57,181 nucleotides of DNA from Marine Group III euryarchaeote CG-Epi1 (GTDB lineage Archaea; Thermoplasmatota; Poseidoniia; MGIII; CG-Epi1). Shown one piece after another: positions 3,642-9,538 of this stretch; the first letter of the stretch is position 1, and each line of letters begins with the position of its first letter. The notes beneath the pieces were generated by a model that saw only the letters and a list, made by a program, of their open reading frames with translations, searched no databases and was not told the DNA's origin. The DNA is taken from contig MIZA01000024.1 in the NCBI GenBank assembly GCA_001875345.1, positions 1 to 57,181 on the forward strand. The letters run 5' to 3'. The position numbers were made by a program, and so were the translations under genes.

Positions 3642-4181
3642 TTATTTAACAAATAATCTGTATTTCTGATCGGTCTCTCGAATTTCATTCTCTATTCTTT
3701 GAGATAAATATTTTTCAGGGTTTCGAAAACTAGAAATTTTCTCTTCCATTTCCTTGAAAGTTTTGTAAGGCCTATTTTTAACGATAAGGTTCATAGTTTT
3801 TTTACCCAATCCTGGAATTAATTCTAAAGAGTGGTATCTACGTGAAATTGGACCTGCATGATTATAAAATTGAATAAACTTTTCTTCGTTATCTTTTACA
3901 ATTTCATCCAAAACAAAGCTTAGTTCACTCTGAGCTGTATGAGTTAAGTCTGAATAATTAACTCGTGCCCTAACGTGATCTATCTGCGTTCGTTCTTCGG
4001 TCTCTTTCCCAATATAACATTTATCACCAATATTTATGGCTGCACCAGTTACCGGCTGCATGTCAAAAATCTTGAATTCCTCAATTCCTAAGCCGTAAAC
4101 TAAAGGCTCTCTTCTAAATCGTCGCTTGCTATCGGGTCTTCCCTCTGGCAATACATCAAGAACGTAGGCGTAATCTTCCAT
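3642..4181 (-). CDS. DUF655 family protein with helix-hairpin-helix
   Basis: A 179-residue archaeal conserved protein. The N-terminal half (EDYAYVLDVLPEGRP, then a small beta-barrel-like stretch with GDKCYIGKE) and the C-terminal HhH pair (LELIPGLGKKTMNLIVKNRPYKTFKEMEEK, about residues 118-147) are diagnostic of DUF655, a predicted RNA/DNA-binding protein. In many euryarchaea it sits between rpo4 and ksgA. Here it follows rpo4 by 3 nt, while ksgA has moved to 13.9 kb. Likely role: an accessory factor in rRNA or transcription-coupled processes, inferred from the neighbourhood only. It converges with the lipoprotein gene, with stops back to back at 3641/3642. Confidence 0.85.
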   Translation of the reverse strand: MEDYAYVLDVLPEGRPDSKRRFRREPLVYGLGIEEFKIFDMQPVTGAAINIGDKCYIGKETEERTQIDHVRARVNYSDLTHTAQSELSFVLDEIVKDNEEKFIQFYNHAGPISRRYHSLELIPGLGKKTMNLIVKNRPYKTFKEMEEKISSFRNPEKYLSQRIENEIRETDQKYRLFVK

Positions 4182-4184
4182 AAA

Positions 4185-4673
4185 TCATACCCCCATTGTC
4201 TCCTTGACGGTAGAAATAATGGTATCAATTTCATCATGGCCAAGAGAAAAACGCTCTCTTGCAAATATCGAACGAACATCGTCTGCATGCATTGGTAAAA
4301 CATCTACTATTTTGGCAGCATAATAATCATTAACATGTTCTAGTTCAATTACTTTTTCCATAATCTGACTTCCCTGCTCTGGGGTTGCTTGTGTAATTAA
4401 ACGAACATGGTCTAAAGCCAATTTGTGCTCATATTGAATTTGTTCAATTAAAATTAATCTTTGTGAATCACATTTTTCACATGTTGGTCCGGTGTATTCT
4501 TCAGACTCTTCTTCGTCTTCGGATTTGTCGGCTTCAGGCTCAACATCAGGAACAGCCTGGAAATGACCACAATCTACACATCTTAAACGGTTTTCTCTGA
4601 CACTTAGCTCTTTTTCCAGCAATTCTTTTGCTACGCCTAAAGGTACTGGTTCTGGTTGTTTTTCTACGTCCAT
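4185..4673 (-). CDS. rpoF: RNA polymerase subunit Rpo4 (RpoF) with cysteine-rich insertion
   Basis: The C-terminal two thirds (YEHKLALDHVRLIT through DDVRSIFARERFSLGHDEIDTII) is the HRDC-like Rpo4/Rpb4 fold, which pairs with Rpo7 to form the polymerase stalk. The N-terminal strand-helix (PVPLGVAKELLEKEL) is also recognisable. Between them lies an insertion of about 45-50 residues carrying Cys32-x2-Cys35 and Cys65-x2-Cys68, separated by a very acidic loop (residues 45-60). This looks like a zinc ribbon with an acidic hairpin. At 162 residues the protein is much longer than the usual 105-120. It sits between rpl21e and DUF655, the standard euryarchaeal order, so the identity is secure and the insertion is the unusual part. 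Confidence 0.88.
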   Translation of the reverse strand: MDVEKQPEPVPLGVAKELLEKELSVRENRLRCVDCGHFQAVPDVEPEADKSEDEEESEEYTGPTCEKCDSQRLILIEQIQYEHKLALDHVRLITQATPEQGSQIMEKVIELEHVNDYYAAKIVDVLPMHADDVRSIFARERFSLGHDEIDTIISTVKETMGV

Positions 4674-4682
4674 TTTATCTTC

Positions 4683-4976
4683 CTACTTAGCTTTCCTAAG
4701 ATGCTCAGGTCTTACTATCAATTCTTTGAGCATTTTACCGACACGTGTTGAGACCACATAAGCCTTACCTTGATTACCGGTCACTTTACCAGTTAATCCA
4801 TGAAATCTGTGGTGTGGTTGCCCTTTTTGATATGAAGAATCAATAACTACGTTGACAGTATCGCCTAATTCAAATGTTTGCAGCGAACGTGTAATTGGAG
4901 AAAGCCCTTTCTCTTTGAAAGAACGTGAAAGCTTGTGGCGTGAACCGCTCCTTAATCCTTGTGATCTTTTGGTCAT
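4683..4976 (-). CDS. rpl21e: 50S ribosomal protein L21e
   Basis: A 97-residue basic protein of the large ribosomal subunit. The N-terminus MTKRSQGLRSGSRHKLSRSF and the segment ELGDTVNVVIDSSYQKGQPH, followed by FHGLTGKVTG and a C-terminal RPEHLRK, match archaeal/eukaryotic L21e along the whole length. Its ATG overlaps the pus10 stop as ATGA (4973-4976), indicating coupled translation, and rpo4 follows after 9 nt. Length and start agree with the family. Confidence 0.97.
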   Translation of the reverse strand: MTKRSQGLRSGSRHKLSRSFKEKGLSPITRSLQTFELGDTVNVVIDSSYQKGQPHHRFHGLTGKVTGNQGKAYVVSTRVGKMLKELIVRPEHLRKAK

Positions 4977-6214
4977 TTTTTTTCCTCTTCAAATTCAAGG
5001 TGAAGATTAAGGACATCCAAAACCTCTACCTTGCATGCTCCATCAACCAGCGAGGAAAAACTAGGAACTGTCCGCCCCATGTCTCCGCTGACAAGTTCAC
5101 GAATATAGGTCCCGTGTTGAGCTCTGATTTCTAACTCGACCATTCCCTGCTCAAATGATAATACATTTACCGATTCAACAAGGCGCGGGCGTATCAAATC
5201 TGCTCTACGGTGCGCTACACGTGTCGGTGTCCGCTGCTTGACAAGCTTCTCCTTCAACCTCTGCGCCCCGTTCTTAAGGCTTTCTATTGTTAAGTCTTCA
5301 GGGATAGATACGTCTACTCTGTATGATTTATCACAAACTGTATTCTTGAGTTCAGCAACTCTTTTTCGAGGAACAAACTGTAAGCTATTTACTTGAATTC
5401 GATCCACATTGCTTTTATTAATTTCATCTGCCATCTCATCTAAGTTAATATCTCGATTCCTAGGCATTCGCAGTTCTAGAACAAAAGGTCTACCTAAACC
5501 TAGCATTGCTGCATCGATGTCTTCGCGTCCCATTCCGTGAAAAAGATTTTCAGTTGCCTTCGTAACTTTCATGAAGGGTTCAGCCACGAGAGACTGAACT
5601 GAATCTGGATAAAGTTGACCTGTATGATTGCAACTTTTACAACCCTTTCCTTTACAATTCCTACAAGGCCAATAAGTCTGAGGAATAGTTCTATCATACT
5701 TGTTATATTTCCCCTCAACAAATATAGACTTAATTTCTAAGTTAATTGTATCATACCTAGTATCAATAATGACTGTTGAATCTGGATTATCTAATCTTGC
5801 TAAAATGTTATTTTTCTGAAAAACGCCTATACCTATCTCTCTGTTTAACTGAGATTTAATACTCTCTGATAAATTTACACCAAAAGTATTTGCAAATTCA
5901 GACTCTAGGTTTAAGATGTCCTTATCCACAATGGTTCCAATTTTAAAAGTTTCAAGTGAATAATCCGAAATTGATTCGCAGGCTAAATCGATAAAATTAT
6001 CAATTTCTCCAATCAATCCATCACAAATCTTACAATCCTCTGGGGAGCAAATAATCTCTTCAACAATATTCATATTCTCAGACAATTCAATAATATTAAT
6101 CATTTCGATCCCCCTCTCTCTATTGTCAAGGCCAAAACCGACTAATCCTACTGAGCGACCTAAACAGGAAAGACAAAAAGGCGAGTATTTCTTTATTTCT
6201 TCTAAATCAAACAT
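4973..6214 (-). CDS. pus10: tRNA pseudouridine synthase Pus10
   Basis: It makes pseudouridine 54 and/or 55 in the T-arm of archaeal tRNAs. N-terminal zinc-binding cysteines are visible (PFCLSCLGR at residues 12-20, a later CKIC pair), and so is the family-specific central knuckle CRNCKGKGCKSCNHTG. The catalytic aspartate lies in GREDIDAAMLGLGRPFVLE, where the usual D is followed by the ARMLG-like stretch. The C-terminal RTPTRVAHRRADLIRPR and GTYIRELVSGDMGRT segments are the PUA-like and active-site motifs. At 413 residues the length is normal. It is the first gene of the pus10-rpl21e-rpo4-DUF655 unit. Confidence 0.95.
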   Translation of the reverse strand: MFDLEEIKKYSPFCLSCLGRSVGLVGFGLDNRERGIEMINIIELSENMNIVEEIICSPEDCKICDGLIGEIDNFIDLACESISDYSLETFKIGTIVDKDILNLESEFANTFGVNLSESIKSQLNREIGIGVFQKNNILARLDNPDSTVIIDTRYDTINLEIKSIFVEGKYNKYDRTIPQTYWPCRNCKGKGCKSCNHTGQLYPDSVQSLVAEPFMKVTKATENLFHGMGREDIDAAMLGLGRPFVLELRMPRNRDINLDEMADEINKSNVDRIQVNSLQFVPRKRVAELKNTVCDKSYRVDVSIPEDLTIESLKNGAQRLKEKLVKQRTPTRVAHRRADLIRPRLVESVNVLSFEQGMVELEIRAQHGTYIRELVSGDMGRTVPSFSSLVDGACKVEVLDVLNLHLEFEEEKK

Positions 6215-6912: not shown

Positions 6913-6971
6913 GAACCTTCATACAGATGTTTAAATATTAAATACTGTAAGTGGATAATGGTTTGATTAAA

Positions 6972-7910
6972 ATGGAAAGTGATTCTAATTACGGCGGCAG
7001 TTCATCAGGCAGAATACAAAATCTTGTTGAAGATTTAGGAGATGAAAGCTTTGAGACACGCAATGAAGCATTAATGACTCTAAAAGCAATGTTACCACAT
7101 AGCGAAGTATCTATATCTAACAATCTTGTAGAGATAATAGCTGAACATGGGGATGATGAAGCTGGAAGTAGTACTTCTTTTGTTAACAAAGGAGCTATTG
7201 AATTATTCCAAAGCATGAGTGAACTTGGTCTAGAGCCGCTCGTCAACGATTTACTAAGAAACGGTGATGAATACGCAAGAAGAGTAGCTACTGATGCATT
7301 GGGAAGAACTGGAAGAATGGCTGTTTTACCTTACTTAATAGAAAGCATGAATGATGATGACATGTATGTAAGATGGCAAGCTGCCAAAGGTTTAGGTAGA
7401 TTCGCTGGATCTAGTGATGCTCGCGATGCTCTAGTTGGTTCTATGGATGATTCTAAACCGTACGTAAGGAAAAGAGTTGCTCGATCTTTAGAGGTATTTG
7501 GAGGAGCTGGACCTGTTGATGAAAAAGTTGAAGGACCCATGGAAAAAGATGGCAAAGGTGACATTGATGGAGATGGAATACCTGACTCCAAAGATAAAAA
7601 ACCAAGAAAAGCTAAAAAAAAGAAAGGTAAGAGCAAAGAAGATGATTTAGCTAGAATTGCAGAAAAAAAGGAAAGTATTGATTTTAAGACACTAGGGACT
7701 GCTAGTGAAAATGACAAAGATGATTTGAAAAATATAAAAGGTATTGGTCCTTTCTTAGAGCAAAAGCTTAACGCATTAGGGATTTACACTTACAAACAAA
7801 TTTCAAACATGACTCCCGAACTTGAAGATCAAGTTAATGAAGCCATAGAATTTTTCCCTGGTAGAATAAAAAGAGATAATTGGGTCAAGCAAGCAAAAGA
7901 TTTGAAATAA
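6972..7910 (+). CDS. HEAT-repeat protein with helix-hairpin-helix C-terminus
   Basis: A 312-residue protein from ATG 6972. A GTG at 6951 is in frame, but the TATA-like TTTAAATATT at 6930-6939 would place the transcript start near 6958-6962, so ATG 6972 is preferred. Residues ~10-180 hold HEAT/PBS-lyase-type helical repeats (ARRVATDALGRTGRMAVLPYLIESMNDDDMYVRWQAAKGLGRF). An acidic/basic linker follows with the calcium-loop-like DIDGDGIPDSKD and a lysine-rich run. The C-terminal ~65 residues (DDLKNIKGIGPFLEQKLNALGIYTYKQI) form a helix-hairpin-helix of the kind that binds nucleic acid or scaffolds complexes. Probably a cytoplasmic scaffold; the function is unknown. Confidence 0.75.
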   Translation: MESDSNYGGSSSGRIQNLVEDLGDESFETRNEALMTLKAMLPHSEVSISNNLVEIIAEHGDDEAGSSTSFVNKGAIELFQSMSELGLEPLVNDLLRNGDEYARRVATDALGRTGRMAVLPYLIESMNDDDMYVRWQAAKGLGRFAGSSDARDALVGSMDDSKPYVRKRVARSLEVFGGAGPVDEKVEGPMEKDGKGDIDGDGIPDSKDKKPRKAKKKKGKSKEDDLARIAEKKESIDFKTLGTASENDKDDLKNIKGIGPFLEQKLNALGIYTYKQISNMTPELEDQVNEAIEFFPGRIKRDNWVKQAKDLK

Positions 7911-9252: not shown

Positions 9253-9328
9253 TGATTTGTCAATTAGATATGTCCAAATAATACTTCCCACAAAATTTAA
9301 TTACCGACAATTTTCTGGATTTTACAAT

Positions 9329-9538
9329 ATGTATGGAGTTATATGCTGTCCGAAGTGCAGGTTTGTTACAGCAGTTGATCTGAAATTTAAAACAAAAAAA
9401 TGCATTAAATGTAATTATAATATTAATCTTAAAAAAGTGCGTGTAATTTTCAAAACAGAAGACAATAATGAACTTGGAAATCTGATTAAGGATGCTAGAA
9501 AAAGAGTTGAAAATGGGAATTTGTTTGTTGAACCTTAG
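9329..9538 (+). CDS. Small zinc-ribbon protein (DUF5817-like)
   Basis: A 69-residue protein from ATG 9329. It begins MYGVICCPKC and has a second knuckle CIKC, giving a four-cysteine zinc ribbon in the first ~35 residues, followed by a charged helix (ELGNLIKDARKRVENG). The pattern resembles small archaeal zinc-ribbon proteins annotated DUF5817. The frame stays open upstream to a TTG at 9257, but that would run through the asnS promoter region and add residues with no family counterpart. It may bind RNA or act in translation, judging only from its neighbours (asnS, rpl41e-like, pheT). Confidence 0.7.
   Translation: MYGVICCPKCRFVTAVDLKFKTKKCIKCNYNINLKKVRVIFKTEDNNELGNLIKDARKRVENGNLFVEP

Follow-up and report, generated by a model that had tools for sequence, protein, structure and literature searches.

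Why does the RNA polymerase stalk subunit Rpo4 of the Marine Group III (MGIII) euryarchaeote CG-Epi1 carry four cysteines around an acidic loop, and is this a peculiarity of one gene or a property of the lineage? The gene, rpo4 (rpoF), lies at 4185..4673 on the reverse strand of the window, the whole 57,181-nucleotide stretch of contig MIZA01000024.1 that was analysed, and encodes a protein of 162 amino acids from an ATG start codon. An earlier note on this DNA, made from the letters alone, had named the product Rpo4, and this assignment held. The window protein scored 27.5 bits against PF03874 (RNA_pol_Rpb4; cut-off 25.6) over residues 75-159, and a PDB sequence search with E values up to 10 returned only the Rpo4 chains 4qiw_F, 8cro_F and 1go3_F. 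Fold searches matched the Rpo4 body to 4qiw_F (Z 12.4, rmsd 2.8, 118 residues aligned) and to 1go3_N (Z 12.2 over 105 residues). The protein missed the NCBIfam RpoF equivalog cut-offs (best NF011552, 68.5 bits against a cut-off of 156), NCBIfam holding several parallel RpoF models; the name Rpo4 is kept despite this miss because of the Pfam match, the fold and the neighbourhood.

In that neighbourhood, all on the reverse strand, rpo4 is preceded by the genes for ribosomal protein L21e (4683..4976; PF01157, 115.5 bits) and the tRNA pseudouridine synthase Pus10 (4973..6214; TIGR01213, 426.2 bits) and followed by a DUF655 protein gene (3642..4181; PF04919, 184 bits). The gene for the partner subunit Rpo7 is present in genome G000 (C10:24010-24543; 189.7 bits, cut-off 124.2). 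Elsewhere in the window, two forward-strand frames encode a HEAT-repeat protein (6951-7910; PF13646, 66.2 bits; GTG start in the ORF list) and a small protein with two CxxC pairs and sub-threshold matches to DUF5817 and DUF1922 (9257-9538).

Within the subunit, an otherwise canonical Rpo4 is interrupted near its N terminus. Helix 1 (residues 12-25; 4599..4640, reverse strand as for all parts of the gene) was placed by the AlphaFold2 (AF2) secondary structure and by alignment to ordinary Rpo4s, and the MGIII-specific insert (residues ~27-77; 4443..4595) by an alignment of 54 Rpo4s. Helix 2 together with the HRDC-like helical domain (residues 78-162; 4188..4442) is canonical by Pfam, PDB, AF2 and fold search; helix 2 itself spans residues 81-93 in the AF2 model, and RecQ/WRN HRDC domains align from residues 94-99 to 162, marking the HRDC-like core. 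The insert thus lies N-terminal to the HRDC-like core, as the earlier note had proposed, but one helix earlier than it had stated, in the turn between helix 1 and helix 2. The first knuckle, C32-V-D-C35 (consensus RCxxCG; 4569..4580), and the second, C65-E-K-C68 (consensus GPxCxxCGS; 4470..4481), stand exactly at the four cysteine positions given before, with codons at 4578-4580 (C32), 4569-4571 (C35), 4479-4481 (C65) and 4470-4472 (C68). Between them runs an acidic, variable loop (residues 43-61; 4491..4547) with a net charge of -10, predicted to be disordered on the basis of AF2 pLDDT and a 20-sequence comparison. The ~50 extra residues around an acidic loop that had been noticed at the outset were likewise recovered in the alignment. 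Among the 20 aligned MGIII sequences, the loop between the knuckles is 19-42 amino acids long and has a net charge of -8 to -18 in every one, being more acidic in genus g2 (-15 to -18) than in genus g1 (-8 to -10).

The idea that the insert is zinc-ribbon-like also gained from modelling. An AF2 model built on alignment A3, which holds the 54 Rpo4s (20 from MGIII and 34 others), has a mean pLDDT of 83 and was used in place of an earlier model from 15 MGIII sequences (mean pLDDT 54.7). The model predicts a three-stranded module, with strands at residues 29-32, 38-40 and 73-77, and a disordered loop, in which pLDDT falls below 50 over residues 47-57. Measured against what defines a zinc ribbon, the window Rpo4 has two conserved CxxC knuckles and, in the AF2 prediction, a small three-stranded beta fold. 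Among curated zinc-ribbon profiles, no Pfam ribbon family matched at E values up to 10, and NCBIfam NF047912 reached 8.1 bits against a cut-off of 37; because a curated profile match is absent, we term the insert zinc-ribbon-like and do not assign it to a named ribbon family. The fold searches were dominated by the Rpo4 body and hardly probed the insert. One weak Foldseek match, 7pwg_m (E 0.58), is to a Giardia ribosomal chain of 51 amino acids that is possibly a small zinc protein.

The cysteines are a property of the whole family. All four were found in 21 of 21 MGIII family genomes (G000-G020), which answers the check for lineage-wide conservation that the earlier note had called for, and they are invariant in the 20 aligned sequences; the one further sequence, L021, contains an X and was counted among the 21 but left out of alignment A1. 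Identical Rpo4s were merged in the comparison set. The window protein was used to search 60 genomes, among them that of the window itself. In all 21 MGIII genomes the match ran through the insert, although in five from genus g2 it was split in two owing to their longer loop. The other 39 genomes belong to the class's two remaining families, presumably Marine Group II; 26 of them matched, in no case starting before residue 78, and 13 gave no Rpo4 match at the search threshold. Ten Rpo4 loci from these sister families encode proteins of 117-121 amino acids and lack the insert; sister-family Rpo4s L022-L030 have a few additional residues (e.g. NRNGYST) behind helix 2, which MGIII lacks. Furthermore, CxxC is absent from 52 non-MGIII Thermoplasmatota Rpo4 entries, which contain 12 cysteines in total, spread over 10 entries; this set includes eight Rpo4s of family f11 (L081-L088) cut at a downstream start, whose longer frames also lack CxxC, and one entry, L096, that is not a clean Rpo4. 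The insert therefore proved lineage-specific, as had been supposed: neither the ten sister-family loci nor the further Thermoplasmatota Rpo4s compared have it.

Broader searches agreed with this distribution. A phylum-wide scan with an MGIII Rpo4 profile matched 225 of 292 genomes and, among the matches listed, the insert was matched by six MGIII genomes only, apart from G144 and G272; these two reach model position 26-27 but with three stop codons each, and were discounted as insert carriers. Matches in G091, G060, G121 and G148 start at model position 66-70, and their Rpo4s lack CxxC. A wider contig scan with MGIII-specific patterns gave 20 loci, largely from the same genomes, with four cysteines in 20 of 20. 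The closest named Rpo4 to that of the window is L031 (98% identical). One of the 20 loci, an MGIII-type Rpo4 that is 96% identical over residues 31-162 (L035; PCCQ01000080.1), lies in a bin labelled Candidatus Neomarinimicrobiota, probably through mis-binning. In the titles and abstract openings of the open-access literature, we found no description of a zinc-bearing Rpo4, of an Rpo4/Rpb4 insertion or of the MGIII polymerase; the accessible part of a paper on archaeal RNA polymerase evolution (PMC13257274) contains neither "zinc", "insertion" nor "Poseidon", and its three mentions of "Rpo4" do not concern such an insert.

Selection has acted differently on the parts of the module. Pooled within-clade NG86 omega, which combines pairs that are not independent, was 0.041 for knuckle 1, 0.057 for knuckle 2 and 0.146 for the loop; outside the insert it was 0.043 (residues 8-26) and 0.053 (residues 78-160). 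Constraint on the knuckles thus equals that on the remainder of the subunit and is weaker in the loop, and purifying selection on the four cysteines and the strands beside them is strong. Since all relatives compared lack the insert, the most plausible reading is that it arose in the MGIII stem.

The turn that received it is permissive, since Rpo4 length varies there in other groups as well. In the distant Thermoplasmatota family f11 (eight genomes), an insert of comparable length occupies the same turn, giving full-length Rpo4s of 146 (L087), 146 (L081) and 140 (L085) amino acids, but it lacks cysteines and differs in sequence from that of MGIII, and is apparently an independent insertion. 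Some members of family f17 (L058 and relatives) have a short acidic insert at the turn, and the Thermococcales PDB chains (Thermococcus kodakarensis and Pyrococcus furiosus) are 6 amino acids longer there. Outside Thermoplasmatota, Rpo4s were sampled as PDB chains and family models, and the contig scan was specific to MGIII patterns, so that an unrelated zinc-bearing Rpo4 may exist elsewhere. The archaeal Rpo4/RpoF chains 4qiw_F (T. kodakarensis), 8cro_F (P. furiosus) and 1go3 (Methanocaldococcus jannaschii) share gene family and fold with MGIII Rpo4, but are 107-122 amino acids long and lack the insert, whereas MGIII Rpo4s have ~50-75 amino acids more and four cysteines. Yeast Rpb4 has a long, charged, disordered segment, an acidic linker, in its N-terminal half, which is not known to contain a zinc site; it resembles the MGIII loop in these general features. 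Judged from these sequences, insertion at the turn is not unique, but the conserved zinc-type module is unique among the Rpo4s compared.

What might the module do? The explanation that we find best as a whole, held tentatively and at somewhat less than an even chance, is that zinc ribbon and acidic loop together give the stalk a site at which a partner protein docks, most likely the termination nuclease FttA (aCPSF1). The module of ~50-75 amino acids in the helix 1/helix 2 turn of Rpo4, gained in the MGIII stem, is what the sequences show. The four cysteines would bind one zinc to give a small three-stranded ribbon, from which the acidic loop would hang in a disordered state, as both model and motif suggest. 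Placed near the exit of the nascent RNA, such a module could serve the stalk as a constitutive dock for a protein, with the ribbon offering a rigid and the loop an electrostatic contact. FttA, already stalk-docked in Thermococcus, would be the likely partner because its stalk-contact loop and the segment next to it are changed in MGIII.

According to a Thermococcus study (PMC11616081), FttA-prox touches both stalk subunits, RpoE and RpoF, over 619 A2, and the FttA substitution R572A impairs FttA-dependent cleavage. Of the 16 MGIII genomes searched, 14 yielded a full-length or almost full-length FttA; the other two genomes are 65 and 70% complete. The equivalent of T. kodakarensis R572, residue 555 of the MGIII FttA L197 (aligned via PH1404 R575, with a 3-residue numbering offset between the chains), is Gly in all 14 MGIII FttAs, whereas each of the 25 others has Lys, Gln, Arg or Ser there; the loop that holds it is 1-2 amino acids longer in MGIII. 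Taken alone, this replacement is unremarkable, because MGIII-specific residues occupy 55 of the 630 positions of FttA, about 9%. The adjoining segment 577-592 (L197 numbering) carries a net charge of +7 in 14 of 14 MGIII FttAs and at most +4 in the 25 others. Set against the 25 comparators, no MGIII-specific basic gain in the protein is larger (z 4.2), with segment 56-71 next (z 3.6); with the first 12 comparators alone, 577-592 came second to 56-71. The latter segment (L186-L199) is strongest in genus g1. The charge of segment 577-592 is +7 in both g1 and g2, and so does not scale with the acidity of the Rpo4 loop; the segment could equally bind RNA. In family f11, FttA (found in 7 of 8 genomes) shows no basic gain, with +1 or +2 over 577-592. 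Since the Rpo4 and FttA changes fall on one branch, their coincidence is a single event. In Rpo7, the largest MGIII-specific charge shifts over 16 residues are one of about +1.8 beginning at residue 4 and one of -2.2 beginning at residue 63, and 12 positions are MGIII-specific, in a comparison that leaves out the partial Rpo7 L172. We infer that FttA is the leading candidate partner, and this is the least certain step of the explanation.

Other explanations would dispense with such a partner. The module may be a structural spacer, the permissive turn having taken up a ribbon whose acidic loop is passive, or else keeps off nucleic acid in general or aids solubility; the variable length of this turn elsewhere, as in the Cys-less f11 insert and the longer Thermococcales chains, is in keeping with this, and we regard it as a real, though lesser, possibility. 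Such conservation as is seen here would not be required of a passive spacer: the knuckles evolve under the same constraint as the remaining Rpo4, all four cysteines are retained, and the loop has kept its strong negative charge in every aligned sequence despite changes in length; a structural need alone could nevertheless explain the cysteines. That these are a metal or redox sensor, responding to zinc or oxidants and altering transcription, is suggested by the presence of four cysteines on what we take to be a regulatory subunit. CxxC pairs with ribbon-type spacing usually make a structural zinc site, and the data contain no pointer to redox or Fe-S chemistry, which leaves a sensor very improbable. 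Least credible of all is the fusion of a zinc-bearing polymerase subunit, Rpo12 or Spt4, into Rpo4. By hhalign, whose probabilities are pairwise values from small alignments, the insert profile is closest to Rpo12 (78% over 28 columns, covering both knuckles) among the four ribbons compared, the others being S27ae (28%), TFE (11%, 10 columns) and Spt4 (1%). The Rpo12/RpoP ribbon shares the pattern CxxC...CxxCGS over both knuckles, but belongs to a separate core subunit with a short inter-knuckle stretch and a C-terminal tail that the insert lacks. Relocation of either gene was rejected, as both remain separate genes: Rpo12 was found in 21 of 21 MGIII genomes with a family-specific query (PF03604 detects it in just four of the 21, each time below the cut-off) and Spt4 in 16 of 21, the five without a match being 54-85% complete. 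The similarity to Rpo12 is likely a generic ribbon resemblance, with a duplicated Rpo12-type ribbon as a possible distant source of the insert.

The ribbon could also be a built-in substitute for TFE after its loss in MGIII, docking on the stalk and aiding clamp opening. With TIGR00373, TFE went unrecognised in the 21 MGIII genomes, apart from two weak matches (G000 and G003) inside an ORF of ~1787 amino acids, and TFE alpha and beta are stated to be missing in Thermoplasmata in the part of Blombach 2015 (PMC4495717) that was available. Moreover, in T. kodakarensis, the accessible text of PMC7704642 has the TFE zinc ribbon docking on the stalk subunit RpoE, so that the TFE alpha ribbon resembles the insert in being a zinc ribbon seated on the polymerase stalk. 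Several points argue against substitution and make it, in our judgement, unlikely. With the same model, TFE was recognised in none of eight sister-family genomes, whose Rpo4s lack the insert, and among six other Thermoplasmatota genomes it matched clearly in two, neither above the curated cut-off, and went unrecognised in four. TFE is a separate factor with a winged helix, which the insert lacks, and docks on Rpo7, not Rpo4; the profile similarity of the two ribbons is poor beside that to Rpo12. The Rpo7 TFE-docking patch (Y or F, F, L) is conserved in all groups, with or without TFE, and was for this reason dropped as a discriminating test. A diverged TFE may also persist in MGIII: it could escape a search in which four archaeal control genomes all matched but only one exceeded the cut-off, and with PF02002 at E 0.5 a single stretch of the 1787-amino-acid ORF in G000 barely attains the cut-off (22.9), in a search that gave many weak matches, also in all 14 controls, bacteria included. 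Because insert-free sister families also lack a recognisable TFE, we treat TFE replacement as a minor rival. The ORF in question (L127; G000:C1 ~108780-109025) has weak TFIIE-alpha-like winged-helix stretches and is perhaps, we assume, a helicase-like protein; ORFs of similar size also occur in other MGIII and sister-family genomes. Across 196 genomes of the phylum, TIGR00373 matched 20 at E 0.001 and nine at E below 1e-9, with every score under the curated cut-off; TFE looks patchy in Thermoplasmatota, which is at odds with its blanket absence from the class.

We thus return to a stalk docking surface, with FttA as its candidate partner, as the preferred reading. A bolder form of it, which we put forward as speculative and rather improbable, is that the MGIII stalk acquired a permanent zinc-ribbon dock that co-evolved with FttA, so that the interface of RNA exit and termination was rebuilt in a lineage without a recognisable TFE. 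If true, a basal transcription interface would have been re-engineered via the insertion of a domain into a core subunit. The zinc-ribbon-type insertion itself, fixed across the lineage in one of the core subunits of the polymerase, is real; its mechanism is what we infer. Recombinant Rpo4/7 has been made from other archaea, according to the accessible text of PMC7704642, and because of this precedent the question can be answered without a cultured strain. The MGIII stalk therefore offers a testable case, in an uncultured marine group, of stalk interfaces for initiation or termination factors being rebuilt.
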